In this document: in pieces, positions 2,204-52,835 of the stretch
How the letters are laid out: each line of letters opens with the position of its first letter
How positions within the stretch are numbered: the first letter of the stretch is position 1
Source of the DNA: Ruania alkalisoli
GTDB taxonomy: Bacteria > Actinomycetota > Actinomycetes > Actinomycetales > Beutenbergiaceae
Assembly (NCBI RefSeq): GCF_014960965.1
Contig: NZ_CP063169.1
Span: forward strand, 2,637,581 to 2,701,580
Direction: 5' to 3'
Length of the DNA stretch: 64,000 nt
Program-made: the position numbers and the translations under genes
The notes under the pieces: model-generated
The model's input: only the letters and a program-made list of their open reading frames with translations
Told to the model about the DNA's origin: nothing
Databases searched by the model: none

Positions 2204-3043
2204 ATGAGACGACGGCTGGGCGTGCTGGTGCTTTTCGCTGCCGTGCTCGCCGCCTGCAGCGCGTCACCCCAGCCCCCGACGGCGGAGGTCACTTCCCGGA
2301 TCGAGTACGGTTCCGCGCCGGAACAGTTCGGCGACCTGGGGGTACCCGGTGGCATCCCTGGCGGGCAGAGCCGGCCGGTGGTGGTGCTCATCCACGGCGG
2401 CTTCTGGCAGGCCGGCTACGGTCTCGGATTCATGGAACGGTTGGCCGAGGATCTGGTCGAGCGTGGGTATGTCACCTGGAACGTCGAGTACCGCAAGGTC
2501 GGCGAACCGGGCGGCGGGTATCCCGGCACGCTCGAGGACGTCGACGCCGCGATCGAGCACCTGGCCGCGCTGGCCGCCGACGGGCATCCGATCGACCTGG
2601 AACTGGTGGTCGTGGTGGGACACTCGGCCGGTGGGCATCTGAGCCTGTGGGCCGGTACCCGCGACGATGCCGAGGTGGAGCCGGTGCTGGTGGTCGGGCA
2701 GGCGCCGGTGCCGGTGCCGGACCTGGTGGCCGCGGCCCGGTCCGGGATGGGCGGCAGCGCCGTCAGGGACTTCATGGGCGGCACGCCCGACGACGTCCCG
2801 GCCGCCTACGCGGCTGCCTCCCCCGCCGAACGCTTGCCCGGGACGGTGCCTCAGCTGGTGGTCCAAAGGGGCGCCGATCCGGTGATCCCCGAGCCGTACG
2901 TGGCCGGCTATTTCGAGCGCGCACGCGAGGCGGGGGCGGCCATCGAATACGTCGTGGATGACGAAGCCGACCATGGCACGCCGATCGATCCGGGGAGCGA
3001 TCTGTGGGACGCGGTCGTGGAGCGGTTGCCGGCGCCGGGCTGA
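2204..3043 (+). CDS. Alpha/beta hydrolase lipoprotein (esterase / BD-FAE-like)
   Basis: A 279-residue secreted hydrolase. Residues 1-18 form a lipoprotein signal peptide ending in the lipobox LAAC (Cys18). The oxyanion-hole motif HGGFW is at 64-68 and the nucleophile elbow GHSAGGH carries Ser141. A late DEADHG supplies the likely catalytic His. This arrangement matches small carboxylesterases and kynurenine-formamidase-like enzymes. I placed the start at the ATG that opens the signal peptide; TACCCT lies six bases before it, so the message may be leaderless. It is divergent from the TRAP operon, so the two may share control. The substrate is unknown. Confidence 0.85.
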   Translation: MRRRLGVLVLFAAVLAACSASPQPPTAEVTSRIEYGSAPEQFGDLGVPGGIPGGQSRPVVVLIHGGFWQAGYGLGFMERLAEDLVERGYVTWNVEYRKVGEPGGGYPGTLEDVDAAIEHLAALAADGHPIDLELVVVVGHSAGGHLSLWAGTRDDAEVEPVLVVGQAPVPVPDLVAAARSGMGGSAVRDFMGGTPDDVPAAYAAASPAERLPGTVPQLVVQRGADPVIPEPYVAGYFERAREAGAAIEYVVDDEADHGTPIDPGSDLWDAVVERLPAPG

Positions 3044-3202
3044 CGGGCGACCTGGCCTTGGCCGCTGGGTGGTCCGACTGGGCCCTTAGCCATGAAGACC
3101 AAGACTCGTGACTCACGTCGTCGACGGCCCGGTCGCCTGGTCTCCACGCTAGGAGTCGCGCCCCGGGTCCTGTTTCTCGATTCCTGACCGGTCGACGAGA
3201 CG

Positions 3203-4093
3203 CTATTTGACCGCACCGGCGGTCAGGCCGGCGATCACTTGTCGCTGCAGGATGAGGAACAGACCGATCGGGACGAGCATCACCAGCACCGCGCCCGCAA
3301 GCGCCCCGGTGATGTTGAATCCGAACTGACTCTTGAAGCCGGCGAGGGCGAGTTGGACGTTGTGGTTGTCTGCCGAGACGGTCAGGAGGTTCGCGAAGTA
3401 GAACTCATTCCAGATCTTGACGAACGCGACCACGCAGACCGTGGCGATGGCGGGCCGTGACAGTGGGACGACGATCCGGCGCACGATCGTGAAATAGCCG
3501 GCGCCGTCCATGACCGCGGCCTCTTCGATCTCGCCCGGCAACGAGAGCAGGAACGATCGCAGCACGATGAATGTGAACGGGAACTCCAGCGCGGCGTAGA
3601 AGATGACCAGGCCGAGACGGGAGTCGAACAGTTCCAGGGAGCGGACCACGAAGAACAGCGGCGTCGCAAGGCCGACCAGCGGGATGGCCAAGGCGAGCGA
3701 GAATGTCGCCACGAGCGCGTTGCGACCTCGGAACGAATAGCGGGCCAGCGGGTAGGCAGCCAGGAAGGCCGCGACGAGCGCACCGGTGGTACCACCGACG
3801 GCGTACAGGACCGAGTTGCCGAAGTAGGCGTGCAGGTGGATCTCGGTGAACGCATCGGCGAACCCCTGCAGGGTCCAAGGCGAGGGCCATAGTCCCGAGC
3901 CGGAGTTGATCTGGAAGGCGGTCTTGAACGCGGAGGACATCACCCACACGGTGGGTGTCAGTGAGACGGCGGTGACCGCCGCGAGGAAGGCGTAGACGGC
4001 GATGCGTGGCCATACTCCCCGACCGGGTCGCGATGGCCTGGCTCGCATGGTCGAGGTCGTGCCGGTGGCCGGACGCCGTGTGGTCGTCGTCAT
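3203..4093 (-). CDS. Carbohydrate ABC transporter permease, MalG type
   Basis: A 296-residue inner-membrane permease with six predicted helices and the cytoplasmic EAA loop EEAAVMDGAGYFTIVRRIVV, which docks on the ATPase. The start ATG overlaps the stop of the preceding permease as ATGA, indicating translational coupling; the longer open frame upstream is shadow. It is the last gene of the operon FAD oxidoreductase, binding protein, MalF-type, MalG-type. No ATPase gene is present, as is common where a shared MsiK-type ATPase serves several importers. The sugar is unknown. Confidence 0.92.
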   Translation of the reverse strand: MTTTTRRPATGTTSTMRARPSRPGRGVWPRIAVYAFLAAVTAVSLTPTVWVMSSAFKTAFQINSGSGLWPSPWTLQGFADAFTEIHLHAYFGNSVLYAVGGTTGALVAAFLAAYPLARYSFRGRNALVATFSLALAIPLVGLATPLFFVVRSLELFDSRLGLVIFYAALEFPFTFIVLRSFLLSLPGEIEEAAVMDGAGYFTIVRRIVVPLSRPAIATVCVVAFVKIWNEFYFANLLTVSADNHNVQLALAGFKSQFGFNITGALAGAVLVMLVPIGLFLILQRQVIAGLTAGAVK

Positions 4094-5013
4094 CGGTCCC
4101 GCTCCCCGACCCTGAACGCGCGCCGCACCGCGACGATGAGGGCGCCGCCGAGCAGCAGGATGACCAGCCCGACGGCGTTGGCGTGGCCCCATTCTCCGTT
4201 GAGGTAGGCACGGTAGGCATACAGCGCCAGCGTGGCGGTGGTGTCGTCGGGACCACCGGCGGTCAGGATGAAGACGAGGTCGAACATGCCGATGTCGGCA
4301 AGGAGCCGGACGAGCACGCAGGTGCCGATGGCGTTGCGTAGCAGTGGCAGCGTGATGCGGGTCTCGCGCTGCCAGCCGGTTGCGCCGTCGACCTCGGCGG
4401 CCTCGTAGAGCTCGGCCGGGATCGAGGCGATCTCGGCCATGGTCACGACGATGACGAAGCCGAGGATGAAGACGAAGGTGCCGGCGATGGCCCAGCGTGC
4501 CGTGCCCGTCTCATAGAGCCAGTCGCGCTGCGGCAGCCCGAGCGGAACGAGCAAGTTGTTCAACAGACCGAAACGTGGGTTGTAGAACATCGAGAAGATC
4601 AGCGCGTAGGCGGCACCGGAGATGACGAACGGGATGAAGAGCACGGTGCGGAATGCTCGCCAGCCGGGCACCTTCGTTGCGAGCACGATGCCGACAGCAA
4701 CGCCGAGCGGCACCTGCACCAACGTCGACGCCGCCAGGTAGAACAGCGTGTTGCCGACGACTTTCACGAACACGGGGTCGCCCGCGAGCCGGGCGAAGTT
4801 GTCGAGGCCGACGAACGCCAGCTGCGCCCCGGACCAGTCGGTGAACGCCGTGCCAAAGAGCACCACGAGCGGGACGGCGAAGAAGACGGAGAACAGGACG
4901 ACCGCGGGTAGAAGCGAGAGAAGGATCGGGCCACGCATGCCGCGTGGAACCCGGGGCCCGGCCGCGCGCGTGGGCTGCCTGGTTCGCGGCCGAGCCAGGG
5001 ACAGTGACACCAT
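4090..5013 (-). CDS. Carbohydrate ABC transporter permease, MalF type
   Basis: A permease of about 307 residues with an N-terminal basic tail, six helices and the EAA motif ELYEAAEVDGATGWQRE. It pairs with the downstream MalG-type subunit. Two adjacent starts are possible, GTG at 5016 or ATG at 5013; the ATG overlaps the stop of the binding-protein gene by one base and is used here. Coupled by overlap to both neighbours. Confidence 0.92.
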   Translation of the reverse strand: MVSLSLARPRTRQPTRAAGPRVPRGMRGPILLSLLPAVVLFSVFFAVPLVVLFGTAFTDWSGAQLAFVGLDNFARLAGDPVFVKVVGNTLFYLAASTLVQVPLGVAVGIVLATKVPGWRAFRTVLFIPFVISGAAYALIFSMFYNPRFGLLNNLLVPLGLPQRDWLYETGTARWAIAGTFVFILGFVIVVTMAEIASIPAELYEAAEVDGATGWQRETRITLPLLRNAIGTCVLVRLLADIGMFDLVFILTAGGPDDTTATLALYAYRAYLNGEWGHANAVGLVILLLGGALIVAVRRAFRVGERDR

Positions 5014-6338
5014 CACAACCCCGCCGAGGCGTCTGCGGACAGTCGGGAGAGGAACGTGCCGGTGTCCATCTCACCATTGACGTACGCGGGCCACAGGTTT
5101 TTCCACGCGGGCCCGAAACCGGCGGGCCCGTACACCCGCACGTGGGGGTAGGAGAACTCCGCGTCGGCCGCAGCGACCACCAGTCCCGCTGACAGTGGCT
5201 CCAGGTCGGCGGACTCCAGGTCGGCGTCCGGAACGACGACGGCGGGGTTGGCACCGGTCTCGACAGCCTGGGTGAGGGCCTCCTCGGGGGCGGTCACGAA
5301 GCGCATGAACGCCATCACCGCCTCCTGGCTCGGTTCGTCGGTGGCGCCGGAGACCCAGCCGGCACCGGAGACGACGATGATTCCTTGGCCGTCGTCCCAT
5401 CCCGGCGATACGGCGTAGCCGGTGCTCTCGTACAAGCCCTCGGCGGCAGCCTCGGTCTGCAGGTTGGTCTTCACGAACCAGGGCCCGTTCGGCACAGTGG
5501 CCGCATCGCCGGAGAGGTAGGCCGCGGCGGCGTTGGAGAAGTCGCCGCTGAAGGCGTCGGAGTTCACATAGCCCTCGACATGCCACTGGCGCAGGCGCTC
5601 GGTGGCGGCCACGACCGCCTCGTTGCTGCTCCAGTCGCCCCCGCCGGCGATCTCGCCGGTGAGGAAGTCCACTCCTCCGGCTTGCGTGCCGATGAGGTTC
5701 GTCCAGGTCAGCATCGTGGCCCAATCGCCGTCCAGCGCCAACGCGAGCTCGCCCTGTTCGGCGAGAGCTGCAGCGCCCTCCTCGAAGGCGTCCCACGTGG
5801 TCGGGAACTCGTCGAATCCGACCGAGCCCCACAACTCGGTGTTCCAGTAGGTGCCGATCGGGTCCCGCTGCTGCGGGATCGCCCAGACCTGACCGTCATC
5901 ACCTGTCAGGGCGTCGAGCGAACCGGGCTGGAACGTCCCTGCCCACGCGGTATCGGCATCGAGGTCGCCCGTGAAGTCGTGCAGCTTGCCCGTCTCGGAC
6001 AGTGCAGCGATCTCCGCAGAGTTCAGCTGGAAGATGTCCGGCAGGTCATCGGCGAGGGCGAGGCGTTGGTAGTACTGCAGCCGGTCCTCGCTCGAGCCCG
6101 CGTTGGCGTTGTTGAGCATCTCGATGCGGTACTCACCGGCGTACTGCTCGTTGAACCGGGTGGCCGCCTCGAAGTTGTACTGGAGGAACGGGTCGGTGGG
6201 TGATTCCTGGCAGGTGGCACAGGTGATCACGATCTCATCGCCCTCTTCCTCTGCCGATCCGCCTGCGCAGGCGGACGCAGTGAGAGCGGCGGATATCAGG
6301 ACCACCACTGCGGTAGTCCTCCGTGCACGTGCGGACAT
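5013..6338 (-). CDS. Extracellular sugar-binding lipoprotein (SBP family 1)
   Basis: A 441-residue solute-binding protein. The signal peptide starts at an ATG preceded by AAGGAGA, has a basic n-region (ARARR), and ends in ...TASAC before a Gly/Ser/Glu-rich linker, consistent with lipid anchoring. The body has the mixed alpha/beta pattern and acidic surface typical of oligosaccharide-binding proteins. An unusual CATCQ just after the mature N-terminus gives two extra cysteines. It lies 57 bases after the FAD oxidoreductase and is fused by stop/start overlap to the permeases. The ligand cannot be told from sequence alone. Confidence 0.9.
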   Translation of the reverse strand: MSARARRTTAVVVLISAALTASACAGGSAEEEGDEIVITCATCQESPTDPFLQYNFEAATRFNEQYAGEYRIEMLNNANAGSSEDRLQYYQRLALADDLPDIFQLNSAEIAALSETGKLHDFTGDLDADTAWAGTFQPGSLDALTGDDGQVWAIPQQRDPIGTYWNTELWGSVGFDEFPTTWDAFEEGAAALAEQGELALALDGDWATMLTWTNLIGTQAGGVDFLTGEIAGGGDWSSNEAVVAATERLRQWHVEGYVNSDAFSGDFSNAAAAYLSGDAATVPNGPWFVKTNLQTEAAAEGLYESTGYAVSPGWDDGQGIIVVSGAGWVSGATDEPSQEAVMAFMRFVTAPEEALTQAVETGANPAVVVPDADLESADLEPLSAGLVVAAADAEFSYPHVRVYGPAGFGPAWKNLWPAYVNGEMDTGTFLSRLSADASAGL

Positions 6339-6395
6339 GTTCGTCTCCTTCGACGGTTCGAACGGGTGTGTCTGTGATTGATGCAAGGCCCACGT

Positions 6396-8015
6396 TCAGT
6401 AGCCGGCGACGCGTGGCCATGCGAGTTCCACCCCGGATGCGGTGAGCTCGGACTGGAAGTCGGCGAGCAGGTCGTCCTTGGCGCGAACCTGGGATGGCGT
6501 GCAGCCGTGCTCTTCGCAGTACGCAATGAGATGGGCGTCGACCTCCCCGACGTTCCACTCCACCAGCGGCATGCGATACGCGCCGTTGGTGATGTGCGTG
6601 GTGCCGATGTTCTTGGCCGCCGGGAGCAGGTTGCGAACCCGCACGGGCAGCAGCCCGCCGAGCGGGACCTGGAACGGCAGGCATGGGATGTCGATGTAGG
6701 GGTCTCCGCCGGTGGAGGGGTGCAGGTCGATGCGGTACATGCCGATGCCGATCGAGTCGCGGTGCTCGGCGGCGCCGTGGTTGCCACGCACCTCAAGCGC
6801 GATCTCCTGCTCGGTGATGGTGTGCTCGGCAACGATTCGCCGCGATTCGCGGATGTAGGGCGCCAGCGCGAGTCCGTCGGGGCTGTCGCCGAGCAGGTCA
6901 CCGCGCAGTTTCAGGCCGGGCCATCCCGTGCCACCGTCCGGACGCGGCGCCTCCGTCTGCAACCAGTACAGGAACGACAACGACAGGTGACGTGCCCGCT
7001 CGGCGTGCCGTGCGCCGTCGGGGGCTTCGATGACCGGTCCCTCCCAGTAGTCCACCTGGGGCCAGTTCACGAGCGTGATGTCTGACGGATAGGCGCCGGG
7101 CCGGAAGTTCTGCCGGGCGGCGATACGGCGGAACGTCCACAGGTTCTTGTCCATGCTTCCGACCCGCTCGTCGGCATAGTCGGGCCGGATCGCGGTGTGG
7201 TCGCCGTCGGGGTTCGGGTCGAAGAAGTGCTGCACGGGAGTGAGGAGTTTGGGGTGCGGCGCCTCGAAGGACAGCTGACTTCCGGGCCAGTGCTCGATGC
7301 GCGCGTCCGCGAAGTGCTGGTAGAGCGCCGGCTTGTCGATGCGGTGATCCTCCCCTGGCCGGTGGTCGACGGCGAAGCAGACACTGACCGGCTGCATGTT
7401 GAGCGGTGCCGGCACCGAAGGAGCATGCGGTTCCCCGGTTGTCTCGACCGACTCGGCACCGGTGACGTACTCGACCCCGGCCATTGGCAAGAGATCTCCG
7501 GTCTCGGTGGCATCGACCACCCAGTCGGCTGCGATGGTCACGAGGTCACCGGTCGGCAGGTGTTCGAGCGTGACCGCCTGGATCGCGTCCTGGTCGACCT
7601 CGGCGGAGACCGGTGCGTGCTCGAGTCGCACCTCCACCCGGCCGGAAGCCCGGTGGGGTGCCAGCAGTGCCTCCAGCACAGCGAGCGTCACCCGAGGTTC
7701 GTGGCAGAGGTCGGAGACCTTGGCGGCGCCGGGGTTCAGGTACCGGTCCGCGCGAGCGGTATCGGTCAGCGGATAGTGGCGCCGGTAGTAGTCGCGGATG
7801 TCGGCGCGTAGCTGCCGGTAGGTGGCGGTGCAGCCGAACTGCTCGATCCATCGATGCTCGTCCGGTGGCACTGCCTGCGAGGTCAGCACACCACCGATCC
7901 AGCGGGTCGGTTCGGACAGAACGACATGGAGGCCGCGCCGAGCGGCGGTCAGCGCAGCGGCGACTCCGCCGACCCCGCCACCAACGACCAGCACCTTCGC
8001 GTGGATGTTCGTCAT
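6396..8015 (-). CDS. FAD-dependent oxidoreductase (FAD_oxidored, PF12831-like)
   Basis: A 539-residue flavoprotein. VVGGGVGGVAAALTAARRG at about residues 10-28 is the Rossmann FAD-binding motif, followed by the characteristic IGGVLTSQ and later the second FAD strand VVDATETGDLL. This family is often encoded with glycan-uptake genes and polysaccharide lyases, where it may oxidise a sugar or uronate derivative; the reaction is not established. The ATG start at 8015 is preceded by GAGGAT. It is first gene of the ABC operon and divergent from an AraC regulator 34 bases away, which probably controls it. Confidence 0.87.
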   Translation of the reverse strand: MTNIHAKVLVVGGGVGGVAAALTAARRGLHVVLSEPTRWIGGVLTSQAVPPDEHRWIEQFGCTATYRQLRADIRDYYRRHYPLTDTARADRYLNPGAAKVSDLCHEPRVTLAVLEALLAPHRASGRVEVRLEHAPVSAEVDQDAIQAVTLEHLPTGDLVTIAADWVVDATETGDLLPMAGVEYVTGAESVETTGEPHAPSVPAPLNMQPVSVCFAVDHRPGEDHRIDKPALYQHFADARIEHWPGSQLSFEAPHPKLLTPVQHFFDPNPDGDHTAIRPDYADERVGSMDKNLWTFRRIAARQNFRPGAYPSDITLVNWPQVDYWEGPVIEAPDGARHAERARHLSLSFLYWLQTEAPRPDGGTGWPGLKLRGDLLGDSPDGLALAPYIRESRRIVAEHTITEQEIALEVRGNHGAAEHRDSIGIGMYRIDLHPSTGGDPYIDIPCLPFQVPLGGLLPVRVRNLLPAAKNIGTTHITNGAYRMPLVEWNVGEVDAHLIAYCEEHGCTPSQVRAKDDLLADFQSELTASGVELAWPRVAGY

Positions 8016-8049
8016 GTCGTCATCCTCGCGCCCGTGGTTACATTCCGGT

Positions 8050-8892
8050 ATGGCTACACCGCGCTCCCCTGTGTCCAGAATTGACCTGGAGGCACGCCGA
8101 CTGCGCCTGGCTGACTGCGTCGCACGCACCGTGGAGCACGAACCGGGCACCACCGTCGGGCCACGCACCCAGACCGAGATTCAGATGCTCCTCATCCACG
8201 CCGGCACCATGCTCGTGACCGTCGACGATCGCGAGCCCTATGTCGTCCCCGCCGGCCAGATGTGCATCCTGTTGCCCGGGCACGCCGACGTTGTCGCCTT
8301 TGCCGACGGCGCAGCGACGCGTCAGACGCTGGTCCGCGGCACTCCCGTGGACCTCACTGATGGCATGCGTGAATGGCTGGAGTCCGTACGACCAACCCGT
8401 CGACTCTCTGCCGCCCTGACCTACATTTCACGCGAAGCTGTCACCAGCGAGCAGACCAGGCTCACGGCGCACGGTGCACTGGTCGACGCGCTGGCGACAG
8501 CGCTGCTGTGGCGGTTCGTCGCCGAGTTCGAGAACTTCCCCGCCGCCCTGCCGGAGCCGATCGAGGCGGCGCGTCTCTTCATCCACGACAATCTCGGCCG
8601 GGCCATCACCCTCGCCGATATCGCGGGATACGCGCATGTCACCGGTCCGTACCTCATCAGGTTGTTCCGAGAGCACATGGGGACCACGCCCACGAAGTAC
8701 CTGTGGGACCGCCGGGTCACGCTCGGTGTTGAGCTGCTGACCAGCAGCGGACTACCGGTCACCAGGGTCGCCGAGCGGGCCGGTTTCGCTTCCAGCTTCC
8801 ACTTCGCCCGCAAGGTCAAGCAGGCCACGGGGCAGACTCCTACCCAGCTCCGCACGAGTGCGTGGTCCGGTCGGGACATCAGTCCGGGCTGA
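8050..8892 (+). CDS. AraC-family transcriptional regulator
   Basis: A 280-residue regulator with an N-terminal cupin-like sensing domain (pattern VPAGQMCILLPGHAD) and a C-terminal double helix-turn-helix, whose second helix region reads FASSFHFARKVKQATGQTP. The ATG at 8050 is chosen because the upstream frame overlaps the divergent gene; TTACAT lies about six bases before it, compatible with a leaderless transcript. Its position, back to back with the FAD oxidoreductase/ABC operon, suggests it senses that operon's sugar. Confidence 0.9.
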   Translation: MATPRSPVSRIDLEARRLRLADCVARTVEHEPGTTVGPRTQTEIQMLLIHAGTMLVTVDDREPYVVPAGQMCILLPGHADVVAFADGAATRQTLVRGTPVDLTDGMREWLESVRPTRRLSAALTYISREAVTSEQTRLTAHGALVDALATALLWRFVAEFENFPAALPEPIEAARLFIHDNLGRAITLADIAGYAHVTGPYLIRLFREHMGTTPTKYLWDRRVTLGVELLTSSGLPVTRVAERAGFASSFHFARKVKQATGQTPTQLRTSAWSGRDISPG

Positions 8893-8907
8893 GCCGGTGG
8901 GGACACC

Positions 8908-9840
8908 TCAGCGCACGTCGACCTGACGGCGATACTCCCGGGGCGTCATCCCGCACGCCCGGGTCACGTGCGCGTAGTAGCTGGAAAGCGAGCCGAAGCC
9001 GGCAGCCTCGGCGATCTCGATGGAGGACAGCCTCGAGCTGAGCAGCAGCCGTTGCGCCTCCGCCACCCGGCACATGGTCACGTACTCCCCGATCGTCACG
9101 CCCACTGCTCGGCGGAACACCGTCATGGCGTGCGACGGCGTCAGGAGGGCCGAGCGGGCGACGTCACCCACGCTCACCTCGCCCCGGAACCGGTCGACGA
9201 CGAACTGTGCCATGCGTAGGGCGTGACCTGCGTCGCTGGACCGTCCTGACACAGGGCTCCGGTCGCCGTCGGGGTTCTCCTGCTCGCCCGCCACGGCGGT
9301 CTCGGACGCACCATCCTCGAAGTGGGCGAGGACCGGCTTCGCGCGCAGGATGCGCCGCACCGCGGCCTGGATCTCCAGCAGGGCGATGCCTTCGCTCGCC
9401 CGATCCCCGATCTCCTCGAGCCAGGTGGAGACCATGGTGGCGAGGCGCTCCCGCAGCACCGCGTCGTCGGTGACCAGCGGCATCGCCTGCATCAGGCGTC
9501 TCATGTCCGCCTCGGCTAGACCCCATCTGAGCACGGTGGCGAACGGGACGTGCACCCAGCACGTCTCCCCCGCAGCGTCGGACTCCGTGCGGTCTTCGAC
9601 CAGGCCGTGCGGTTGCGTCGCCCAGAACATCGCGATCTGCCCCTCGCGCAGCACCAGCGGGCGGCCGGCGTAGAGGTAGCGCAGCTCACCGCGCAGGACG
9701 ATGTTGCCCTCGAGGTCATCGTGGCGGTGCAGCATGAGCATCGTCGGCGGTTCGCCGCGATGGCACCACAGTGCCGGCTGCTCGGTGACGACCCTGCGGG
9801 GCCTGGGCGGTACTGCCTCGCCCGTGATGTCCGTGCGCAT
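8908..9840 (-). CDS. AraC-family transcriptional regulator
   Basis: A 310-residue AraC-type protein: the N-terminal half begins with a cupin pattern (HRHDDLEGNIVLRGELRYLY) and the C-terminal half has the two helix-turn-helix motifs ending FGSLSSYYAHVTRACGMTP. It is convergent with the AraC gene on its left (15 bases apart) and divergent from the GH4 glycosidase on its right (91 bases apart), making the glycosidase the likely target. The start ATG at 9840 follows GGGTCGAGGC. Confidence 0.9.
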   Translation of the reverse strand: MRTDITGEAVPPRPRRVVTEQPALWCHRGEPPTMLMLHRHDDLEGNIVLRGELRYLYAGRPLVLREGQIAMFWATQPHGLVEDRTESDAAGETCWVHVPFATVLRWGLAEADMRRLMQAMPLVTDDAVLRERLATMVSTWLEEIGDRASEGIALLEIQAAVRRILRAKPVLAHFEDGASETAVAGEQENPDGDRSPVSGRSSDAGHALRMAQFVVDRFRGEVSVGDVARSALLTPSHAMTVFRRAVGVTIGEYVTMCRVAEAQRLLLSSRLSSIEIAEAAGFGSLSSYYAHVTRACGMTPREYRRQVDVR

Positions 9841-41740: not shown

Positions 41741-41935
41741 GGACGGTAGCACGGAGATCTGGGGGTGGGCAAGGTGGGCGCGAGCACGGCGGGTGGGCAG
41801 CAGACTGGTGGGCACAGCAGAGGACATCAGCGTGCTCCGACCGAGGCTCCAGGCATCGACCAGGGTTTCGGCTTGGGACGACGCCTGGAACATGGGTCGA
41901 TGCGTCGAGCTCGGCCGCAGATCGTGTGGCTTGTA

Positions 41936-41983
41936 GTCCACTTCCGCGGATGTGTATTGTGATACACAATCGTAGAAGTGGAC
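41936..41983. promoter_or_regulatory. Nested palindromic operator of hipBA
   Basis: GTGTAT (41952-41957) mirrors ATACAC (41962-41967), and GTCCACTTC (41936-41944) mirrors GAAGTGGAC (41975-41983), all about one axis at 41959.5 with equal 7-base spacers. It is 25 bases upstream of the hipB GTG. This fits cooperative binding of HipB dimers; no independent -35/-10 is clear. Confidence 0.7.
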
Positions 41984-42008
41984 CAGGAGACACACAGGGA
42001 GGTCGGTC

Positions 42009-42224
42009 GTGAGGGTACGCACCATGGCTGAGGTTGGCGCTGTCATCCGCGATGCCCGCGAGCAAGCCAGTCTCACTCAGGCCGAGCTCGCCCGCCGTGC
42101 TCGTGTCTCCCGTGAGTGGCTCATCAAGGTCGAGTCCGGACGCACCAGCGCCGAGATGCCCCGCATCCTGGACGTCCTCGCCCACCTTGATCTCACTCTC
42201 GACATCAAGCACGAGCGTGAGTAG
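42009..42224 (+). CDS. hipB: XRE-family antitoxin of HipBA module
   Basis: A 71-residue helix-turn-helix protein (VIRDAREQASLTQAELARRA then VSREWLIKVESGR), the size and pattern of HipB-like antitoxins. The GTG at 42009 is chosen because GGGAGG precedes it; an in-frame ATG lies at 42024. It ends two bases before hipA. HipB binds HipA to restrain it and binds the upstream palindrome to repress the pair. Confidence 0.9.
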   Translation: MRVRTMAEVGAVIRDAREQASLTQAELARRARVSREWLIKVESGRTSAEMPRILDVLAHLDLTLDIKHERE

Positions 42225-42226
42225 CG

Positions 42227-43603
42227 ATGGCCGACCGTCACCTGGACGTCCACATGGACGGCACTCGCGCCGGGTCACTCACCTTGACCGGCGCGGGCAA
42301 CATCACCTTCACCTACGACGAGGACTACCGCGGCAGCCCCGGTGCCACGCCACTGTCCCTGTCGATGCCCACAGTGACCGGCCGGCATCGTCAGCGCGCC
42401 GCGCTGCCCTTCATCCAGGGCTTGCTTCCCGACAATGAGCAGGCCTTGGCCTCTCTCGCTACGACCTACCAAGTCTCGGCACGGTCCCCGTTCGCGATCC
42501 TCGAGCACATCGGCGGCGACGTCGCCGGAGCACTGCAGTTCCTGCCGCCTGGGCAGGAGAGCTCGGACGCTACCGCGAACCGATCCCTGCTGACGTCGGT
42601 CAGCGACGAGGAACTCGCGCGCGACCTGGCCACAGTCATTGACGCGTACCGGACGGGACGGCCGCTGCGGGGAAGGGAGCGACTGAGGTTGAGCCTGGCC
42701 GGCGCCCAACCCAAGCTCGCCCTGGTCGCTATGCCTGACGGAACCTGGGCGCGACCCGGCCCCGGGGCACCGACCACCCACATCCTCAAGCCGGAGTACA
42801 CAACACCGCGCACCGTCGCCGACGAACGGTTCCCCGACCTGTCGACGCTGGAGATGTTCAGCCTCGCCGTGGCCCGGCACGCCGGGCTGCGCACACCGGA
42901 TGCCCGCATGTGGACCTCGCCCGATGGGCAGCTGCGGTCGCTGGTCGTCCAGCGGTACGACCGACACCTCGGCACGGACGGACTCGTGCACCGCGATCAC
43001 CAGGAGGACCTGTGCCAAGCGTTGTCGGTCCCGCCGGAGAAGAAGTACCAGCATCGCGACGGTGGGCCGGGTGTTGGGGCGATCGGTGAGCTGCTGCGTC
43101 TGCGCTTGTCACCAACGGACCGGATCGCGACCGCGCGCGACTTCCTGGCACTGCTGACGCTGAACATCGCCCTGGTGAACACCGACGCGCACGCCAAGAA
43201 CTACTCCCTGCTGCTCGATGGTGCCAGCGTCCACCTCGCCCCGACATACGACGTCCTCTCCATCACCCCCTACGAGCATCCCGAGGACGCCGCCTTCACG
43301 GAGCCCCTGTCATTCCCGATGCGGATCGGCGACAGCTACCTGATTCGCGAGATGCACCCCGCCGTGATCGCGCGCGAGGGAGAGCGCCTCGGGCTGGAGG
43401 CTGAGGAGTCGCATGAAGTCGTTGCAGGCGTTCTCGCGGCGCTCCCTGGTGCACTGGAGCAGGCACGCGAGGCTGTCGCAGGTATCCCCGGTGGCATCCG
43501 GATTGCCGACACCACGATCCGCAACCTACGCGCCATCTCCCCGCTCCACGACCGACCGGGGCGCACGATCGACCTCCGATCGCCCCCGCCCGCAGCCTCG
43601 TAG
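42227..43603 (+). CDS. hipA: HipA-family serine/threonine kinase toxin
   Basis: A 458-residue HipA kinase. LSLAGAQPKLAL is the P-loop-like segment with the autophosphorylation serine region, VVQRYDRHL is conserved, NTDAHAKNYS is the catalytic loop and APTYDVLS the metal-binding DxxS. All are intact. E. coli HipA phosphorylates glutamyl-tRNA synthetase and causes persistence; the target here is unknown. It is two bases after hipB. A broken copy of the same module lies at 11435-11750. Confidence 0.93.
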   Translation: MADRHLDVHMDGTRAGSLTLTGAGNITFTYDEDYRGSPGATPLSLSMPTVTGRHRQRAALPFIQGLLPDNEQALASLATTYQVSARSPFAILEHIGGDVAGALQFLPPGQESSDATANRSLLTSVSDEELARDLATVIDAYRTGRPLRGRERLRLSLAGAQPKLALVAMPDGTWARPGPGAPTTHILKPEYTTPRTVADERFPDLSTLEMFSLAVARHAGLRTPDARMWTSPDGQLRSLVVQRYDRHLGTDGLVHRDHQEDLCQALSVPPEKKYQHRDGGPGVGAIGELLRLRLSPTDRIATARDFLALLTLNIALVNTDAHAKNYSLLLDGASVHLAPTYDVLSITPYEHPEDAAFTEPLSFPMRIGDSYLIREMHPAVIAREGERLGLEAEESHEVVAGVLAALPGALEQAREAVAGIPGGIRIADTTIRNLRAISPLHDRPGRTIDLRSPPPAAS

Positions 43604-43670
43604 GCACGGGCTCCGCCCGGTCCGTGGCGGGCGCGCCACGGCCCGGGTGCGTCGAGTTCGGCACTGGGCC

Positions 43671-44678
43671 ATGTGCCCGCATGATGCGATGTTCCGGGCG
43701 GTGGTGGGAGTGCCGGCGAATGCGGCGTCGGTGCTGACCTCGGTGCTGCCTGCGCACATCACGGGAAGCCTGGACCTGGACGGGCTGCGACTGGAGCCGG
43801 GCAGCTTCGTGGACGAGGAGATGCGTCAGCGCCACACCGACCTGCTGTTCTCCACCCGCCTCAACGGTGACCCCGCACTGGTGTATGTGCTGGTCGAGCA
43901 CCAGTCCAGCCCGGACCCGTTGATGGCGTTGCGAGTGTTGGACTACGTCACCCGGATCTGGTGGCGCCACCTCGACGTCGGCGCCGAGTCCGACGACCCG
44001 CACCAACCACGCCGCACTGGTCCCGGGGCGGCGGCCAGGACGCTGCCGCCGGTCCTGCCGGTGGTGGTCTATCAAGGCCGGCGCCGTTGGAACACGCCCA
44101 CGGCCATGGACGGGCTGTATGACGCTGCCTCCGAGCAAGCGCTGGGTTCATTCCTGCCCCGGCATCAGTTCGTGCTCCAGGATCTGACCGGAGTGGAGGT
44201 GGAGGAGTTGCTGGCGGCGCCGTTGACTCCGGCGGCCAGGCTGGCGTTGGCGATGCTCCGGTTCGCTCCCCGGCAGGAACACCTGGCTCAGGTGCTGGAG
44301 CAGTTCACACCGGACGTGCTGGACCTGGTGCGCACCCGGGCGGATCGGATGTTCACGATTATCATGGAGTACGCCTACCAGGTCAGCGACTCTCCACCGG
44401 CGCAGGTGCGCCGCTACTTCGAAGACCTGGGACCAGACGCACGGGAGGCCTACATGTCCAACACACTCGAACGAGGACGCGCCGAAGGAGTCGCCGAAGG
44501 AGTCGCCAAGGGCCGCGCCGAGCAGGGTGCCCGGATGATGACCCGCCTGCTGGTCCAGAAGTTCGGGCCCCTCACGTCCGAGCAGACCGCCCGGATCGAG
44601 TCCGCGACTCCTGACCAGCTTGAGGCCTGGGTCGACCACCTCGATGAGGCCACCACCATCGACGACGTCCTCCGCTGA
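43671..44678 (+). CDS. Rpn-family recombination-promoting nuclease / PD-(D/E)XK (Transposase_31)
   Basis: A 335-residue protein. MCPHDAMFRAVVGVPANAAS is the family start; LLFSTRLNGDPALVYVLVEH holds the PD-(D/E)XK-type core (D at the LLF site, the E of VLVEHQS) and Gln/His follow. DYVTRIW and the long helical C-terminus match Rpn proteins. Family members are DNA nucleases linked to recombination and phage defence. It starts 67 bases after hipA and is convergent with jetC, ending 77 bases from it, in the slot where jetD would be expected. Confidence 0.82.
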   Translation: MCPHDAMFRAVVGVPANAASVLTSVLPAHITGSLDLDGLRLEPGSFVDEEMRQRHTDLLFSTRLNGDPALVYVLVEHQSSPDPLMALRVLDYVTRIWWRHLDVGAESDDPHQPRRTGPGAAARTLPPVLPVVVYQGRRRWNTPTAMDGLYDAASEQALGSFLPRHQFVLQDLTGVEVEELLAAPLTPAARLALAMLRFAPRQEHLAQVLEQFTPDVLDLVRTRADRMFTIIMEYAYQVSDSPPAQVRRYFEDLGPDAREAYMSNTLERGRAEGVAEGVAKGRAEQGARMMTRLLVQKFGPLTSEQTARIESATPDQLEAWVDHLDEATTIDDVLR

Positions 44679-44755
44679 CGGAGGTCGCCGCGGAGGGCTT
44701 CGCTACGTCACCGCCCCGGCAGCCAGGCCATTGATTCCCGGAAGCGACGGCGTAC

Positions 44756-47700
44756 TCACCCGACGAGCGCCACCTTCGGCTTTGCCCAGGACCGGCCGCG
44801 CGTGTCCTTGAGGATGTCGTACTCCACATCGACGTGGGGCTCGATCGCGCTGTACTTGTCGTTCGGCGCGCCGATGATCAACTGGAATCCCAGGCCCCGC
44901 CATGCTCCGATCGCCCGCTTCGTGAAGTGCGCGTCGGCCTTGATCAGCGCCTCGTCGAGGAAGACCGGGGCGTAACGCGGGCGCTCGGAGTCGGGGTCCC
45001 CGAGCTGGTAGCGCAACGCCGCGCCGACGATGAACGCGATCAGCTCCTGCGACTCACCACCGGACTTCTCCCCGATGTGGTCGTACAGGGCGGCGTGCTC
45101 TCCCGTGTCGGCGTGCACCTTCTCCGCGCTGATCCGTACGTGGTTGCGCACATCGACGAGCTCGGCGAAATCTGGAGCCGAGCGCCGCATGCGTGCGATC
45201 AGCCGCGCCATCCGGCCATACACGGCTTCCCGATCGGCGTCGGTCTCGGCACTGTCGATGAGGCCGCGCACCTCGCGCAGCTCCCGGCGAAAGCGGCGAC
45301 GCGCCTCGGAGGAGGTCTCGCGTGCGGCGATCTGCAGGCGATGCGCGTCGTCATAGAAGGGAAGGTCGGCCATGATCTGGTTGATCGGCTGGATCCGGTC
45401 GCGGATCTCCCGCAGCGCCCGCCCGAGCGTCGAGTCGAGGTTGGTGAGGTCGTTGCCGGACAGCTGCAGCAGGCTGTCCTTCCACTCGGCCTCGAGCTGG
45501 TGCAGCCCGCTGATCTCGAGGTCGGTGAGGATTCGCTCGAAGTCACCGTAGGAGCTGTCGGGGTCGGCGCGAAGATTCGGGTTCGGCCAGCTCTCGAGGA
45601 ACGACTCGAACGTGCGCTGCAGGGCGTCGCGCTGCTCCGAGAGCGTCGTCTGCGCGGCCACCTGGTCCTCGGCGAGCAAACGAGAGGCATTCTCCAGAGC
45701 GAGATCGAAACGCTCGAGCTCATGCGTCCGGCTCGCACCCTCAACCGGGGCGACCACCGCGAAGCGCTCCTCCAGATACCCGGACTGGTCCTCGGTCAGC
45801 GTGTGCTCGGCGCGTTCGGCTCGGTCGAGCAGGAACTGGGCGTCATCGACCTGGTCGGTGATGAGGGCCCACTGCTCACCGAGACGCTCCACCTCACCAT
45901 CGGCGCGAGCGGCCGAGGTCATCAGCTTCGACAGCGTGGACTTCACCTCGACCAGCTGGCGCTGCAGCTTCGTGATCTCGGGGTTGCCCGTCGAGATGTC
46001 GTCGATCAGCCCAGCCCACCGATCCCGCTCGGCCTCGGCGGATGCGCTGTCGACCTGCGCCCACGTCAGCTCCACAAGCTTGCCGTAGGCGGTGTGCCGC
46101 GCGTCCAGGTCGTCCAGCGCCTGGGCTGCATGTTGCTGCGCTTCAAGGGCGGCCGTGCGGCGGGTCCGCGCGTCGGCGATCGCCGCCGACAGTTCGTCGA
46201 GACGGCGGTGGTTGGAGAAACCGAGCACGTTGCGGCGCCCGTGCCCCCCGTGCGCACCGCGGGCACCCTGAGAGATCTGCCCCGAGATCGTCATCGCCAT
46301 GTCGTGGCGGGTCAACTCGGCCGCGGTGTCCACGCACAGGAATCCGAATCGCTGGTCAAGGCGGTCCTGCAACCACCCGGTGAACGGCGACTCACGGAAG
46401 TCGAGGCGCCCGGGCATGCGCCGTGGATCGAGCTCCGGCAGCCGCGGCGAACCGGTGTGCACCCCTTCATAGCGCAACCGCACGCGCGTCGGCACGCTGT
46501 CGATCGCCCGGCGGAACCGGTCGAGGTGCGCCTGGTCGATCAGCAGCGTCGTCGCGAACCCGCCGAGAGCAAGGTTGAAGGCCTCACGCCACGGTTCGAA
46601 CTCGGTACGCACCTCGATGAGTTCCCCGACGAACGGCAGGTCCGCCAGGTCCAGCCCAGCGGCCTCGGCGAGCAACAGGCGAGCCTCGTGCTGCGGTGTC
46701 GGGATCGCGCCGTCATGCTCCCCCGCCTGCGCCGACTCCCCCTCCAGTTCGCGCAACTCCTGGTCGATCTCGCCGGTGCGCTGCCGGGCCGCCGCCCAGG
46801 CCTCGCGTGCGGTGTCCTTCGCACGCGGATCGTCCAGACTCTCCCGCGCCTGCGCAACAAGGGCATCGAACTGCTTGGCGGTCTCGGCGGTCACGCCGAT
46901 CCCGTAGAGGATCTGATCGAAGCGCTCGCGTTCTCGGGCGACCTCCTCGGCGTGGCGTTCGGCACCACGCAACTCTCGCTCCGCCGTCACCAATCGGTCG
47001 CCTCCGGCGGCGCGCAGGAGTTCGGCGAGCGCATCGCGCTGCTGCTCGGCGGCATCCACCTGCACCCGTGCCGCACGGGCGGTGTCATCGGCGGCGCGCT
47101 TGCGTGACTGCAGTTCCGCTTCGACGTCGCGCAGCAGACCGAGGCGCTTCTGCGCACGCCACAATGTGGCGGGAGATTCCGGGTCGGTGAAGCGCCCGAC
47201 CTCGTCGATGAGGCGCAGCCGATCGGCCGCGGATCCGATCCGCGCCTTCATCTCCCGGATGGGCTCCAACATGCGCACCTGCTTGCGCGCAGTCACCATG
47301 CGCTCACGGGTGCTCTCGAGCTCGTCGAAGTGACTCACCACGGCATCGGCCGTGGTGAGCGTCTCGGGCTCTTCGAGGACCATGCGCTTGTACAGCTCGT
47401 CGACGGTGGTGATCTGCTGACCGGCCTGGATGCGTGCGAGCAGGCTCATCGCCTTGTCACCGGCGCCGGCGGCGCCGATCCCGAGAACCGAGTGCAGCCG
47501 GGCGGTGAACTCCCGATCCGTGTGCACGGTGTCGAGGCCAGTCGCGGCCACGGCCGCATCGGAGAGCCGGTGCATCGCCGCGGACTCCAGCGAGCTCAGG
47601 TCGAAGTCGCCGTCCGTGGTGGCGCGTACCTTCACGGTGTCATCGACCAGGCGCGCGCCGGCCGGGATGTACCAGGCGCGCACAGCGGTGAACCGGGACC

Positions 47701-48106
47701 CGTCGTGGTCGATCCAGGTCATCGCGACGGCGGTCCAGGTGTCCTCACCGTCGCCGCGCAGTACGCGCACCTGGGTTCCGTCCTCGGTGCGGGATTCGTC
47801 GATCTTGCCGCGACCGTAGGAGACGATGTTGCGCTGGTCCTGGCCGCGCGGCCGGCCCGTCACGCCGCCGTTGGAGGCTCCGTTGAACGGGGTGGTGTGC
47901 GGCATCATGAGCGCGATGTAGGCGTCCATGAGGGTCGACTTGCCGGATCCGGAGCCGCCGACGAGCAGCGTGGCGTCGGGCGAGAACCTCACGCGGTGGG
48001 CGCCCTCGTAGCCGCCCCAGTTGACCAGCTGGATCTCGTCCGCGACCCACTGCTGGCCACGGCTGGTGGCAGGGATCATCCCGAAGAGGGTGTCGAGCAT
48101 GGTCAC
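44756..48106 (-). CDS. jetC: JetC-like SMC ATPase of a Wadjet/MksB-type condensin
   Basis: A 1116-residue SMC-like protein. Walker [10 protein letters not shown] is at residues 50-58; the ABC signature KSGGESQE is at about 1014-1021 and Walker B PVFLDEAL near 1046. Between them are two long coiled coils around a hinge-like region at about 500-660. JetC/MksB loops DNA; in Wadjet systems the complex detects small circular plasmids. It starts at GTG 48106, overlapping jetB as GTGA. It is last gene of the operon. Confidence 0.92.
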
Positions 48107-48834
48107 GAGGCGGCCTCCGGCTGGGGGTCGTCGGGCTGGGTCTGGTCCGGTTCGGCCTGGTCCGGTTCAGGCTGGTCAGCCTCGATCTGGTCGGGTTCGG
48201 TCTGGTCGCGCAGCCAGGTGGTGAGCTCGCGTAACTTGTCGGCGCTGAGCACGATCTCCACGAGCGGGCTGATGAGGTAGCGCCCTTCGGACTCCTCGTC
48301 GACAATGCCGTCCTGGCGCAGGCGAGCCAGAGCCGCACGGACGGCGCGCTGGCGGCGGGCGATATCGCCGTCGGCGTCCGGGAAGTAGGTGAGCACGGTC
48401 TGCTCAACCTCCTCCACGTCCACACGCGCGGACCGCTCCCCCGCCGTCGATTCGCGCTGGTACACCGTGCGCAGGTAGACGAGCACGAGCGTCTCGGCCT
48501 GCGAGTACGGCTCATCCCGCAACAGGATCGGCACCTCGAGGTCATCCGAGCGGACCTGCTGCTTGTACGCAACGCCACGTTCGACGTCGACGATGAGGCG
48601 CACGAACACATCGTGCAGACGCGACTCGACCACCTGGTGGTTGTCCATGAGGACGGCCCAGTCCTCCTTGTTGCGGTCGGCGAGCAGGAAGCGCCGTTGC
48701 AGCAGGCGCACCAGCACCCGGCGCACGGCTGGGTCCAGCACGCCGCGGTCACCGGGGAAGGTGGCGTCAGGGTCGTCCTCCATCGCCACGGGGGCGATGA
48801 AGGGGTCTTCGGTGGTCACCTCAACGTCAGTCAT
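48103..48834 (-). CDS. jetB: JetB-like DUF4194 winged-helix subunit
   Basis: A 243-residue acidic protein of the DUF4194/MksE type, the kite-like subunit that bridges JetA and JetC. It has the helical winged-helix pattern ([27 protein letters not shown]) and an acidic repeated tail (PDQ/EPDQ units, 219-243) of low complexity. It overlaps jetA by eight bases and jetC by four. Confidence 0.88.
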
Positions 48835-50299
48835 CGGCTAGGTCCTCCACGGTGCGGGCGGTGACGGCTCCGAAGGCGAATCGGCGCGTCGTGCCGTCGG
48901 GGCGCAGCGCCTCGACGACGGACAGCTCATCATTCTCGGTCATGCCACGGCGGTGAGCGATCTCGAGCAGCCCCACGAGATCGACGGGGCGCCGGGTCGC
49001 ATCGGATGCGCCGGCGAAGGCGGTGGCGAGGTCGAACTCCGGGCCGAGGGTCGCCGCGTACGCCTCGAGCTCAGGGTAGGCCGGGCCACCCCAGGCCCGG
49101 CTGTCGTCGCCGACGAACTCGGGGTCGTCGTCACTGGCAGTCAGCGAGGCCGGTACGCGGGGTGGGCTCGGATCGCTGAGGGAGCGGCGCAGGTCCGCCA
49201 CGTGGGCCACGGGGAAGCCGCGGAGCGGTTCGGCCTTCTGCGCCGGCCCGGCGTGCCGGGTCCACTCCTGCAGCGCGGACATCGCGCCGCGGAGCAGATC
49301 GTCGACCTCGCGGTCACGGACCGGGTCGTGCGTGCGCACCTGGGAGGTGATCACGTGCGAGGCGCGCCGCTGTGCGGTGAGCACCTCCTCGACACCCTGT
49401 TCGACGCGCCGGGCGATCGCACCGAGCTCGACCTGCTGGTCGCGGGCCATGAGACGGGCGAACGGCTGCACGAGCAGACGGTGGAGTTGGTCAGTGAGCT
49501 GGTCGATGCGGTCAGGGTCTCCGATGAGCCGCAACGCACCGGAGAAGGCGCGGCCCTCGGGGGTGGACTGCATGATGTGCTGCCCTCGCTCGAGGTACTC
49601 GCGCAGCACCTCCCCGGTCGGGCGCACATCCCGGCGCAGATCGGCGACGACATCACGCTGCATGGCGGCGATCGACTCTGCGACCCGCGAGAAGTCCGCC
49701 GGGAGCTCGCGGGTGAGGTGGAGGACGTTCTCGGCCTCTTCGAGGAGCTGCTCGTCGTCGGCCGGCTCGAACTGGTCCTCCTCAAGCCGGGCGAGCTCGG
49801 CGTCGATGGCGTCGCGCTCGGCCAGCAACCGGGCCCGGCGCTTCTCCGGATCGGCCTCGGCGTCGCGCGCGAGAGTGTCGATCGAGTCGAGCAACGTGCG
49901 CACCCGCGAGCGCGACACGCGGGCACGACCGCCGCCCGCGCGACCGGCGATCTCCAGAGCGCCCACCGCTTGAGCAGAGAGGCGGTACACCTCGACGTCG
50001 TCCTTGATCTGCGGCACGAGCCACCCCACCCGCACCCAGTACCGGCAGATCTCGCGACCGTTTCCGGCGGGCAGGCTGCGCTCGTCCTCGTCGTAGCCGG
50101 CCGCCCGCAGTTCGTCGACGATCTCAGCAACCTCCACATGTGCGTCACTGATCGCGACCGCCGTGCGCTCAGCCGTGAAGACGAGCGACAGGGTCGCTAC
50201 GACGAAGGGTGCGTACCGGCCGTGCAGGAGATCGAGCGTCGGGTTGCGAAAGGCCAGGACGGCGCGCTGATAAGCGCCCGCAGCGCGCGAGTGAGTCAT
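48827..50299 (-). CDS. jetA: JetA-like DUF3375 kleisin subunit
   Basis: A 490-residue DUF3375/MksF-type protein: [20 protein letters not shown] opens it, and the rest is largely helical with a central coiled coil. JetA is the kleisin that closes the JetC ring. ATG 50299 is the start; TAGACT nine bases upstream suggests a leaderless transcript. First gene of jetABC. Confidence 0.9.
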
Positions 50300-50330
50300 C
50301 GCGACCAGTCTATGGGCTCAGCCGTGGCGG

Positions 50331-50350
50331 GCTGCTGCCCGCGGCGGCAG
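50331..50350 (-). terminator. Short GC hairpin between small membrane ORF and jetA
   Basis: CTGCTGCC (50332-50339) pairs with GGCGGCAG (50343-50350), loop CGC, one wobble. On the minus strand it follows the stop of the 34-codon ORF by seven bases. No T-run. Confidence 0.3.
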
Positions 50351-50357
50351 AGGTCGC

Positions 50358-50462
50358 TCAGATCCCGACGTCGCGCAACACGTTGGCCGTCAGCAACGCC
50401 GTCATCCCCGCCAGTACCGCCAGCCGCAGCACCAGCACGCCCCACGTTGAGTCAGTCCACAT
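50358..50462 (-). CDS. Small single-pass membrane protein (34 aa)
   Basis: ATG at 50462 follows GGCGGGAGACAAG, a good ribosome site, and opens 34 codons with nearly all third positions G or C, as in real genes here. The protein has one hydrophobic helix (VLVLRLAVLAGMTALLTANV). No family is recognised. It sits upstream of jetA on the same strand; any link to Jet is speculative. Confidence 0.45.
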   Translation of the reverse strand: MWTDSTWGVLVLRLAVLAGMTALLTANVLRDVGI

Positions 50463-50628
50463 CTTGTCTCCCGCCTTTCCACTGGCCGTTGCCCCATAGG
50501 TGTGCAGCGGTCCGCCATTGATACGACCCGTCGGCAGGCAATTCGTCACGCGAGAACGCCAGGCGAGATGTGCGCGGACCGGCCGGCGTATCCTGAAGGA
50601 GACCCTTCCTCCGCGCGATGGACCGGTG

Positions 50629-51569: not shown

Positions 51570-52835
51570 TCAGGGCCCGAGGAGCACCAAAGGGACGACG
51601 CCGACTCCGTCCGCGCGCCGATACGCGTGCGTGCCGCAATGGAGAACCACCGCGTCCACCATGTCGGAGCCGACTTGCTCCCGCAGCCAGTGCAGGTGAC
51701 GCACGTCAGAATCGACCACCCGGTCAGAGAGTTTGACCTCGAGAGCAACGAATGCGCCGTCGGGACGATGGACGATGAGATCGACCTCATGCCGACCGCC
51801 ATTGGTACGCAGATGACTGACGCGGGCCTGTGCCGCGGCGGCGTAGGTGTGAACGCTCATGGTTGCCAAGTGCTCGAAGAGTGCGCCGAGGATGGTCCCC
51901 TGGACGAGGTTCTCGCGCCTGGTGTCGGACCGGAGCAAGGAGCGAGCGTCCAGGCCGAGCAGTCGCGCAGCCAACGCCGGATCAGCCAGCTGATGCTTCG
52001 ACGCCCGACCCAGGCGCTCCAGGTGGTTGTGCCCGGGCATCCAAGCCGGTACCGGGTCGATCAGCCAGAGGGAAGACAGCGCGTCGCGATAGACGATGGT
52101 CGTCTCCGTGGCCGGCTTGTTGGCCAACCCTGGCGTGGCCGCGTCGAGGATCTTCGTGTACGACGTGGTCGACGATGTCGCTGCCGCGTAGGCAGCCAAC
52201 CATGCGCGCAGGGACTCAGGGCGGCGAACCTGGTAGCCCTGCTCCGGGAACTCCCGTTGGATCACGTTCTCGAGATAGCCGTCAAGCTCGATCCCCCGGA
52301 CCTGATCCGGCCGGGATCGAATCCCTGGAAAGCCCGACGCGGTGATCTCTTCGACATACTCCAACAACTCCACATCAGTGGTGCCGTGCAACTCGCGCTC
52401 GCCGTCGAGCAGTCTGGTCAGGCTGACCGACGGTGGTGTGAGGTCACGTTCGGCCAGGCTGAGCGGACGCATGCGCAACGGCACGATCCGTCCCGCACCT
52501 GAGTGAACCGTCGCCCCGCGGGGGGCCGAACTTCCAGCGATCAGGAAATGGCCATTGGGAACACCGTCGTCGACGGCCCGCCTGACGTGCTCCCAGACTT
52601 CGGGAAGTCGTTGCCACTCGTCAATGAGTACGGGCCCAGGTGTGCGGACCAGTACACGCGGGTCGGCCATCACGATCTCTCGCTGGCCGACCTGACTCAT
52701 ATCGAAGATGGTGCGCGCCCGGCGACTCGCGGTCGCAGTCTTTCCCACGCCCTTGGGGCCGTGCACGGACACAGCACGCAAGAGAGGCTGGACCTCGTCC
52801 AGCACGGTATCGATGACCCGCTCGCCGTAGTCCAT
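51570..52835 (-). CDS. AAA+ ATPase with C-terminal DUF4143 domain
   Basis: A 421-residue protein. Walker A GPKGVGKT is at 26-33 and Walker B PVLIDEWQ at about 68-75; the C-terminal part, with DLIVHRPDGAFVALEVKLSD, is the DUF4143 domain with its DxV..ExK strand resembling a PD-(D/E)XK site. Its function is unknown. ATG 52835 has TAGAGT six bases upstream, so the message is probably leaderless. Three 23-bp repeats lie immediately upstream. Confidence 0.88.
   Translation of the reverse strand: MDYGERVIDTVLDEVQPLLRAVSVHGPKGVGKTATASRRARTIFDMSQVGQREIVMADPRVLVRTPGPVLIDEWQRLPEVWEHVRRAVDDGVPNGHFLIAGSSAPRGATVHSGAGRIVPLRMRPLSLAERDLTPPSVSLTRLLDGERELHGTTDVELLEYVEEITASGFPGIRSRPDQVRGIELDGYLENVIQREFPEQGYQVRRPESLRAWLAAYAAATSSTTSYTKILDAATPGLANKPATETTIVYRDALSSLWLIDPVPAWMPGHNHLERLGRASKHQLADPALAARLLGLDARSLLRSDTRRENLVQGTILGALFEHLATMSVHTYAAAAQARVSHLRTNGGRHEVDLIVHRPDGAFVALEVKLSDRVVDSDVRHLHWLREQVGSDMVDAVVLHCGTHAYRRADGVGVVPLVLLGP

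Follow-up and report, generated by a model that had tools for sequence, protein, structure and literature searches.

A jetABC operon without jetD in Ruania alkalisoli and the likely repeated loss of the Wadjet nuclease gene in Actinobacteria

Background

Type I Wadjet systems (JetABCD) are known as MksBEFG in Corynebacterium glutamicum and as EptABCD in Mycobacterium smegmatis. Their plasmid cutting depends on the JetD nuclease, which is triggered by the complete loop extrusion of a small DNA circle. The present analysis concerns a jetABC operon of Ruania alkalisoli, located in a stretch of 64,000 nucleotides (assembly GCF_014960965.1, contig NZ_CP063169.1, positions 2,637,581 to 2,701,580; hereafter the window). 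The operon resembles Wadjet type I in the homology of JetA, JetB and JetC, in gene order and in gene overlaps, but differs from it in the absence of JetD.

The other described system close to this operon is MksBEF of Pseudomonas aeruginosa, likewise a MukBEF-like condensin found beside Smc-ScpAB. It was derived from JetABCD by loss of JetD in a review (PMC10586767; here and below, statements on published work refer to the accessible parts of the cited texts), and chromosome roles were described for it by Zhao et al., in the accessible text of which the terms MksG and Wadjet are unused (PMC7485682). Within Actinobacteria, Paenarthrobacter lasiusi S21 provides a parallel, as a three-gene jetABC and a separate type I JetABCD are listed for one genome (PMC11719660, Table 6); the three-gene set, compared here by its listing and not by sequence, is entered there as 'Wadjet' and its missing JetD receives no comment in the part of the paper at hand. 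An actinobacterial defence survey reported Wadjet in 42% of genomes, and the word JetD is unused in the accessible main text (PMC10482375). In the partly covered literature on JetD-less Wadjet or MksBEF systems, the relevant finds were the Paenarthrobacter entry and the statement on P. aeruginosa; no report of jetD being lost repeatedly in Actinobacteria was encountered.

The jetABC operon of the window

The three genes are full-length open frames on the minus strand, running from 50299 to 44756, with overlaps of 8 bases between jetA and jetB and of 4 bases between jetB and jetC. The first, jetA (48827-50299), encodes an MksF-like kleisin of 490 residues that matches PADLOC JetA (E 2e-208), DUF3375 (E 7.7e-109) and the JetA chain of PDB entry 8dk1 (E 1.5e-12). 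It is followed by jetB (48103-48834), encoding an MksE-like KITE protein of 243 residues (PADLOC JetB, E 2.2e-109; DUF4194, E 2.6e-41; JetB of 8dk1, E 2.3e-8), and by jetC (44756-48106), encoding an MksB-like SMC ATPase of 1116 residues (PADLOC JetC, E 0, 1654 bits; Pfam SbcC_Walker_B and AAA_29; JetC of 8dk2, E 4.5e-50). The best PADLOC matches of the operon are JetA1, JetB1 and JetC1, and every solved chain matched at the cut-offs used is a JetA, JetB or JetC of Wadjet. Pattern matching located the Walker A, signature and Walker B motifs in JetC, and by sequence a three-subunit SMC-kleisin-KITE set with ATPase motifs is present. JetB also has an N-terminal stretch with an FxGDxGxL-type motif. 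JetB of the window fits DUF4194 (141 bits) far better than the Pfam MksE model PF21980 (30 bits, above its cut-off of 27), which by family models, and not by the P. aeruginosa sequences themselves, would favour a place on the Wadjet side over one with P. aeruginosa MksBEF. Judged by JetC, Ruania rhizosphaerae (97%) is the closest of the named relatives.

The operon thus unites homologues of JetA, JetB and JetC, as expected of Wadjet, but the fourth gene, jetD (DUF3322 plus the JetD_C Toprim domain), was not found beside jetC, and neither a jetD frame nor a remnant scored within 3.5 kb after it. Only 77 bases separate the jetC stop from the end of a convergent Rpn-family gene. The earlier note on this DNA, made from the letters alone, had described three intact, overlapping jet genes, nothing JetD-like behind them and this same short gap, and the measured overlaps, profile matches and spacing agree with it on each of these points.

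The note had also named a jetD elsewhere in the genome as a result that would count against it. The genome is a single contig of 4.45 Mb, in which a JetD_C profile search gave one match (PF09983, E 1.1e-47), about 289 kb from jetC of the window. This sole jetD is the fourth gene of a separate, complete operon, with jetA at 2977-4458, jetB at 4455-5090, jetC at 5087-8428 and jetD at 8425-9579 of the extracted locus (L082). As the two JetC proteins are only 29% identical, two separate systems coexist in this genome, of which just one includes the nuclease. A jetD therefore does exist, but since it belongs to another complete operon, its absence from the operon of the window stands as an anomaly. 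The complete operon is itself adjoined by a long gene judged by eye to be ATPase-like (381-2678 of the same locus, minus strand).

Distribution of jetD among relatives

Among named relatives, a close JetC was found at 171 loci, of which the 80 best were taken, with a codon-based gene call, and 75 of these were judged; L027, L028, L034, L040 and L049 were set aside, having fewer than 900 bases after jetC. The gene jetD lies directly after jetC in nine of the 75 loci, is broken in one and is absent in 65. The nine belong to Actinomadura (three), Nocardia (two), Actinoplanes (two), Amycolatopsis and Actinophytocola, and two further Actinomadura have no adjacent jetD. The broken gene, in Microbacterium helvum, consists of two frames that cover profile positions 5-250 and 338-413, the stretch between them being missing. 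Apart from M. helvum, no hidden diverged jetD or remnant was detected after jetC by an unfiltered search with a profile of 14 sequences or by tblastn; a 34-residue partial match in L049 stands where the contig ends 129 bases after jetC, and a 14-residue match in L012 sits inside the jetC tail.

A survey of 297 genomes of the same order gave a comparable picture. JetD_C was present in 66 genomes and relatives of JetC in 120, with 132 counted loci (of 133 rows, one being the latter part of a split hit in G165 and not counted); jetD was adjacent in 59 loci, elsewhere in the genome in 13 and absent in 60, the last figure including G163 and probably G126 though their contigs end at or near jetC. 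At JetC identities of at least 35%, 34 loci were found, with jetD next door in five, elsewhere in three, and no PF09983 match in the genome for the remaining 26, one of which is G163, whose contig ends just after jetC. Two other Ruania genomes (G105 and G189) carry the window-type operon and have no PF09983 match genome-wide. Because the JetD_C profile picks up four jetD genes of these clades (G054, G060, G049 and G033), its misses do not reflect a general blindness to the family.

For layout of gene order, 40 of the 59 JetD-adjacent loci were examined beyond those already in the set, together with 20 of the 52 lower-identity JetD-less loci plus six others. Of the resulting 26 JetD-less loci, 18 are jetA-jetB-jetC without jetD, an arrangement found again at lower JetC identity, and eight, all of one family, have no recognised adjacent jetA. 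This family (f12: L127-L130, L177-L179 and L182, from eight species) has a JetC about 29% identical to that of the window, with jetB directly before jetC in two loci and nearby in one; in L177 an uncalled gap of 1.4 kb could hide jetA. It may represent a reduced or different SMC-like system, or its jetA may have been missed, and it was left out of the claims on jetABC.

A search aimed at ScpA, and not at Smc or ScpB, found it in each of the 31 JetC-bearing genomes tested, whether or not they have jetD, so JetABC appears to be an addition to Smc-ScpAB and not a replacement for it. A plasmid- or phage-borne origin was considered and rejected, since a JetC match of at least 60% identity occurs neither among 72,556 plasmid records nor among 50,697 phage records; more distant matches occur in six plasmid records and one phage record.

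History of jetD

Where jetD is present, its divergence follows that of jetC: pairwise identities of JetD and JetC are correlated with r 0.953 over 48 of the 52 JetD-bearing entries, and none of 999 permutations reached this value, which favours the view that jetD travels with jetC. A FastTree tree of 153 entries needs 14 changes of jetD state, of which starred branches force at least 13, and a maximum-likelihood tree of 37 chosen entries needs seven, at least six of them so forced; in the latter tree a single clade of JetD-bearing entries is rejected (p-AU 0.00027). Neither tree is rooted, and long branches come together in places; for this reason the trees alone cannot tell losses from gains. 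Given that JetD divergence tracks that of JetC and that at least six changes of state are needed, repeated loss of jetD with retention of the motor is, from these sequence comparisons, likely.

Two cases may illustrate such a step. Within one genus, a genome with jetD (G049) and one without it (G093) are about 93% identical as far as the final codons of jetC and 87% identical from the end of jetD onward, and between these points the 1.2 kb with jetD in G049 corresponds to 1.8 kb in G093 that hold an antisense gene for an 821-residue protein with a PLD-like domain (8028-10493 of L116, minus strand, overlapping the 3' end of jetC). The jetC tail of G093 reads into this gene, and the altered tail is common to G163. 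Read as intermediates of jetD loss, this exchange and the broken jetD of M. helvum would help the case for loss. The loss step is then apparently visible several times and at different ages, from intact jetABCD through exchanged and broken jetD to JetD-less operons under selection, and sister pairs are available for asking what the motor does without the cutter.

Selection and motif integrity

JetD-less jetABC operons are under strong purifying selection. Between Ruania genomes the ratio of nonsynonymous to synonymous substitution rates (dN/dS) is 0.085-0.11 for jetC, 0.035-0.12 for jetA and 0.14-0.16 for jetB, and these low values give no sign of decay. More widely, the median for JetD-less jetC is 0.098 (38 disjoint closest pairs, three of them from the family without recognised jetA), and that for JetD-linked jetC is 0.17 (15 disjoint closest pairs). 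The ATPase patterns are also largely retained: in 92 JetD-less JetC entries, one of which is truncated and one read in the wrong frame, Walker A was matched in 82, the signature in 91 and a loose Walker B in 91.

A contact of JetD at an N-terminal motif of JetB is reported in the review cited above (PMC10586767), and a further partner at this site is accordingly possible. Loss of the motif once JetD is gone was considered and rejected, as no such loss was seen: both patterns used for the motif were matched in 40 of 95 JetD-less and 10 of 51 JetD-bearing proteins, and neither pattern in 19 of each, with the caution that these pattern counts are noisy and that the motif was not tied to the published IFDR letters, the solved chains aligning only from residue 49.

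A probable motor without its nuclease

The operon of the window is probably a stand-alone JetABC, that is, a Wadjet-derived, MksBEF-like SMC motor whose lineage lost JetD and which works without cutting DNA. Since jetD was apparently lost repeatedly while the motor was kept, the motor probably has a job of its own. The earlier note had left two options, a nuclease-free MksBEF-like condensin or another nuclease standing in; selection on the genes, the patchy occurrence of jetD and the variety of neighbouring genes make the former the best-supported reading, and the latter is not supported. From what is established for Wadjet and MukBEF-type complexes, and from the analogy with P. aeruginosa MksBEF, dimers of JetC joined by JetA and JetB would be expected to load on DNA and to hydrolyse ATP for loop extrusion, and the end point without JetD would be DNA compaction or altered segregation instead of a cut. 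Such a motor could compact, bridge or segregate DNA; it would be an accessory condensin next to Smc-ScpAB, with the chromosome, invading circles or both as its substrate.

As the operon is accessory in Ruania, it may still act on invading circles without cutting them. A more specific and rather doubtful proposal is that JetD-less JetABC still recognises small circles by complete loop extrusion and disarms them by compaction, leading to silencing or mis-segregation and not to a cut. Smc5/6, which restricts extrachromosomal circular DNA, may be likened to such nuclease-free plasmid control. If this proposal were true, Actinobacteria would on many occasions have given up plasmid cutting in favour of a control that needs no nuclease. 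In any case, where surveys take JetABC by itself for Wadjet, plasmid-cutting defence may be less common in Actinobacteria than they suggest.

Several observations weigh against a motor that lost its nuclease and took up work of its own. The operon is accessory in the genus, being present in three of eight Ruania genomes, and as it is also missing as a block together with rpn, it looks more like part of a defence island than like a housekeeping locus. The JetD-bearing complex of C. glutamicum acts on plasmids and has no effect on chromosome folding (PMC7083940). Weiss et al. found four-gene mksFEBG operons in Pseudomonas species as well (PMC10123090), so simple loss of the nuclease does not describe Pseudomonas well. 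Gains of jetD may also have occurred, given unrooted trees in which long branches meet. The N-terminal motif of JetB is seen with and without JetD, and a partner could still bind there. The median dN/dS of JetD-less jetC is lower than that of JetD-linked jetC, but not significantly so (p 0.10).

Alternative explanations and the genes after jetC

The suggestion of the earlier note that another nuclease stands in for JetD concerned the convergent Rpn-family gene (43689-44678, plus strand, the start being that predicted by the gene caller in a frame open from 43413). Its product, scanned as 43530-44678, matches PF04754 (Transposase_31, E 1.1e-44) and, at the C-terminus, DUF4351, as well as RpnA/Rpn models, of which only TIGR01784 is matched above its curated cut-off. 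In each of the three operon-bearing Ruania it is the gene next to jetC, which counts in favour of a replacement, but among the relatives examined the pairing is confined to Ruania: the Rpn query was found in one of 80 named-relative neighbourhoods, that of R. rhizosphaerae, itself one of the three, and the Rpn Pfam family in at most one of the 65 genes next to JetD-less operons. Those 65 genes match 69 Pfam families (25 were listed by count, including every family with at least two members); DUF222, in five, is the commonest, others being FtsK, FtsW/RodA, decarboxylases and transporters, and some repeated neighbours reflect shared gene order of related species. The gene is, moreover, convergent and not co-transcribed with jetABC, it is less constrained (dN/dS 0.25-0.51 between Ruania genomes), and Rpn proteins have been described as toxin-antitoxin systems against phage that are complete in themselves and in which the small partner can carry DUF4351 (PMC10327210). 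Replacement of JetD by Rpn is therefore rejected as scarcely credible, and the gene is judged to be a neighbour and not part of the JetABC system. Varying neighbours in relatives, the other result that the note had named as counting against it, were thus seen in the survey that it had proposed; they refute the Rpn idea and leave the finding of JetABC without JetD unaffected. A common replacement gene of another kind was likewise not seen among the 65 next genes, in which a jetD profile had no match and a PADLOC scan found no family in more than four.

An effector encoded away from the operon, namely a nuclease without recognisable sequence that is recruited through JetA/JetB, would accord with the JetB motif kept in JetD-less operons and with the accessory block shared with rpn; it is nevertheless unlikely, as no constant neighbour was found and JetD detection worked for JetD-bearing members of the same clade. 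There is only a very small chance that the window system borrows the JetD of the second operon. One jetD does exist in the genome, but two of the three operon-bearing Ruania have no jetD match at all, jetD occurs elsewhere in the genome for only three of the 29 loci (at least 35% identity) without an adjacent copy, the two JetC proteins share only 29% identity, and JetD tracks its own JetC; action in trans is thus disfavoured. That the operon is a decaying Wadjet leftover on its way out, as the apparently repeated loss of jetD and the broken gene of M. helvum might suggest, is very unlikely in view of full-length genes, dN/dS of about 0.1 in many lineages and ATPase patterns kept in most JetD-less JetC proteins.

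In four Corynebacterium species (L010, L014, L016 and L026) the same run of small convergent genes follows the JetD-less operon, whereas elsewhere the neighbours vary.

The accessory block in Ruania

The operon lies in a block of about 8.8 kb with hipBA, rpn and jetCBA (41780-50550, limits approximate), which was delimited by blastn comparison of the window with L203 and L205 and which two operon-less Ruania lack at the corresponding site. In these two genomes (G047 and G031) the left flank, ending near window position 41,780, and the right flank, starting at about 50,550-50,620, are only about 330 and 130 bases apart. The block was either gained in the lineage of the window or lost in G047 and G031; a search for direct repeats at its edges gave nothing convincing, and Ruania G234, in which only the left flank of the site was matched, gives no information on an empty site.

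Adjoining rpn within the block is a pair of plus-strand genes that are neighbours and not part of the system: a hipB-like helix-turn-helix frame recognised by eye (42024-42224) ends two bases before hipA (42227-43603; HipA_C, E 2.5e-41, and Couple_hipA). The two other operon-bearing Ruania (L113 and L114) have rpn, and hipA was not found at their operons. Beyond the block, G047 is also without the stretch at 51.5-53.2 kb of the window, which holds a minus-strand gene for an AAA_14/DUF4143 ATPase (51570-52835) that matches the PADLOC candidate defence family PDC-S01 (E 1.9e-70).

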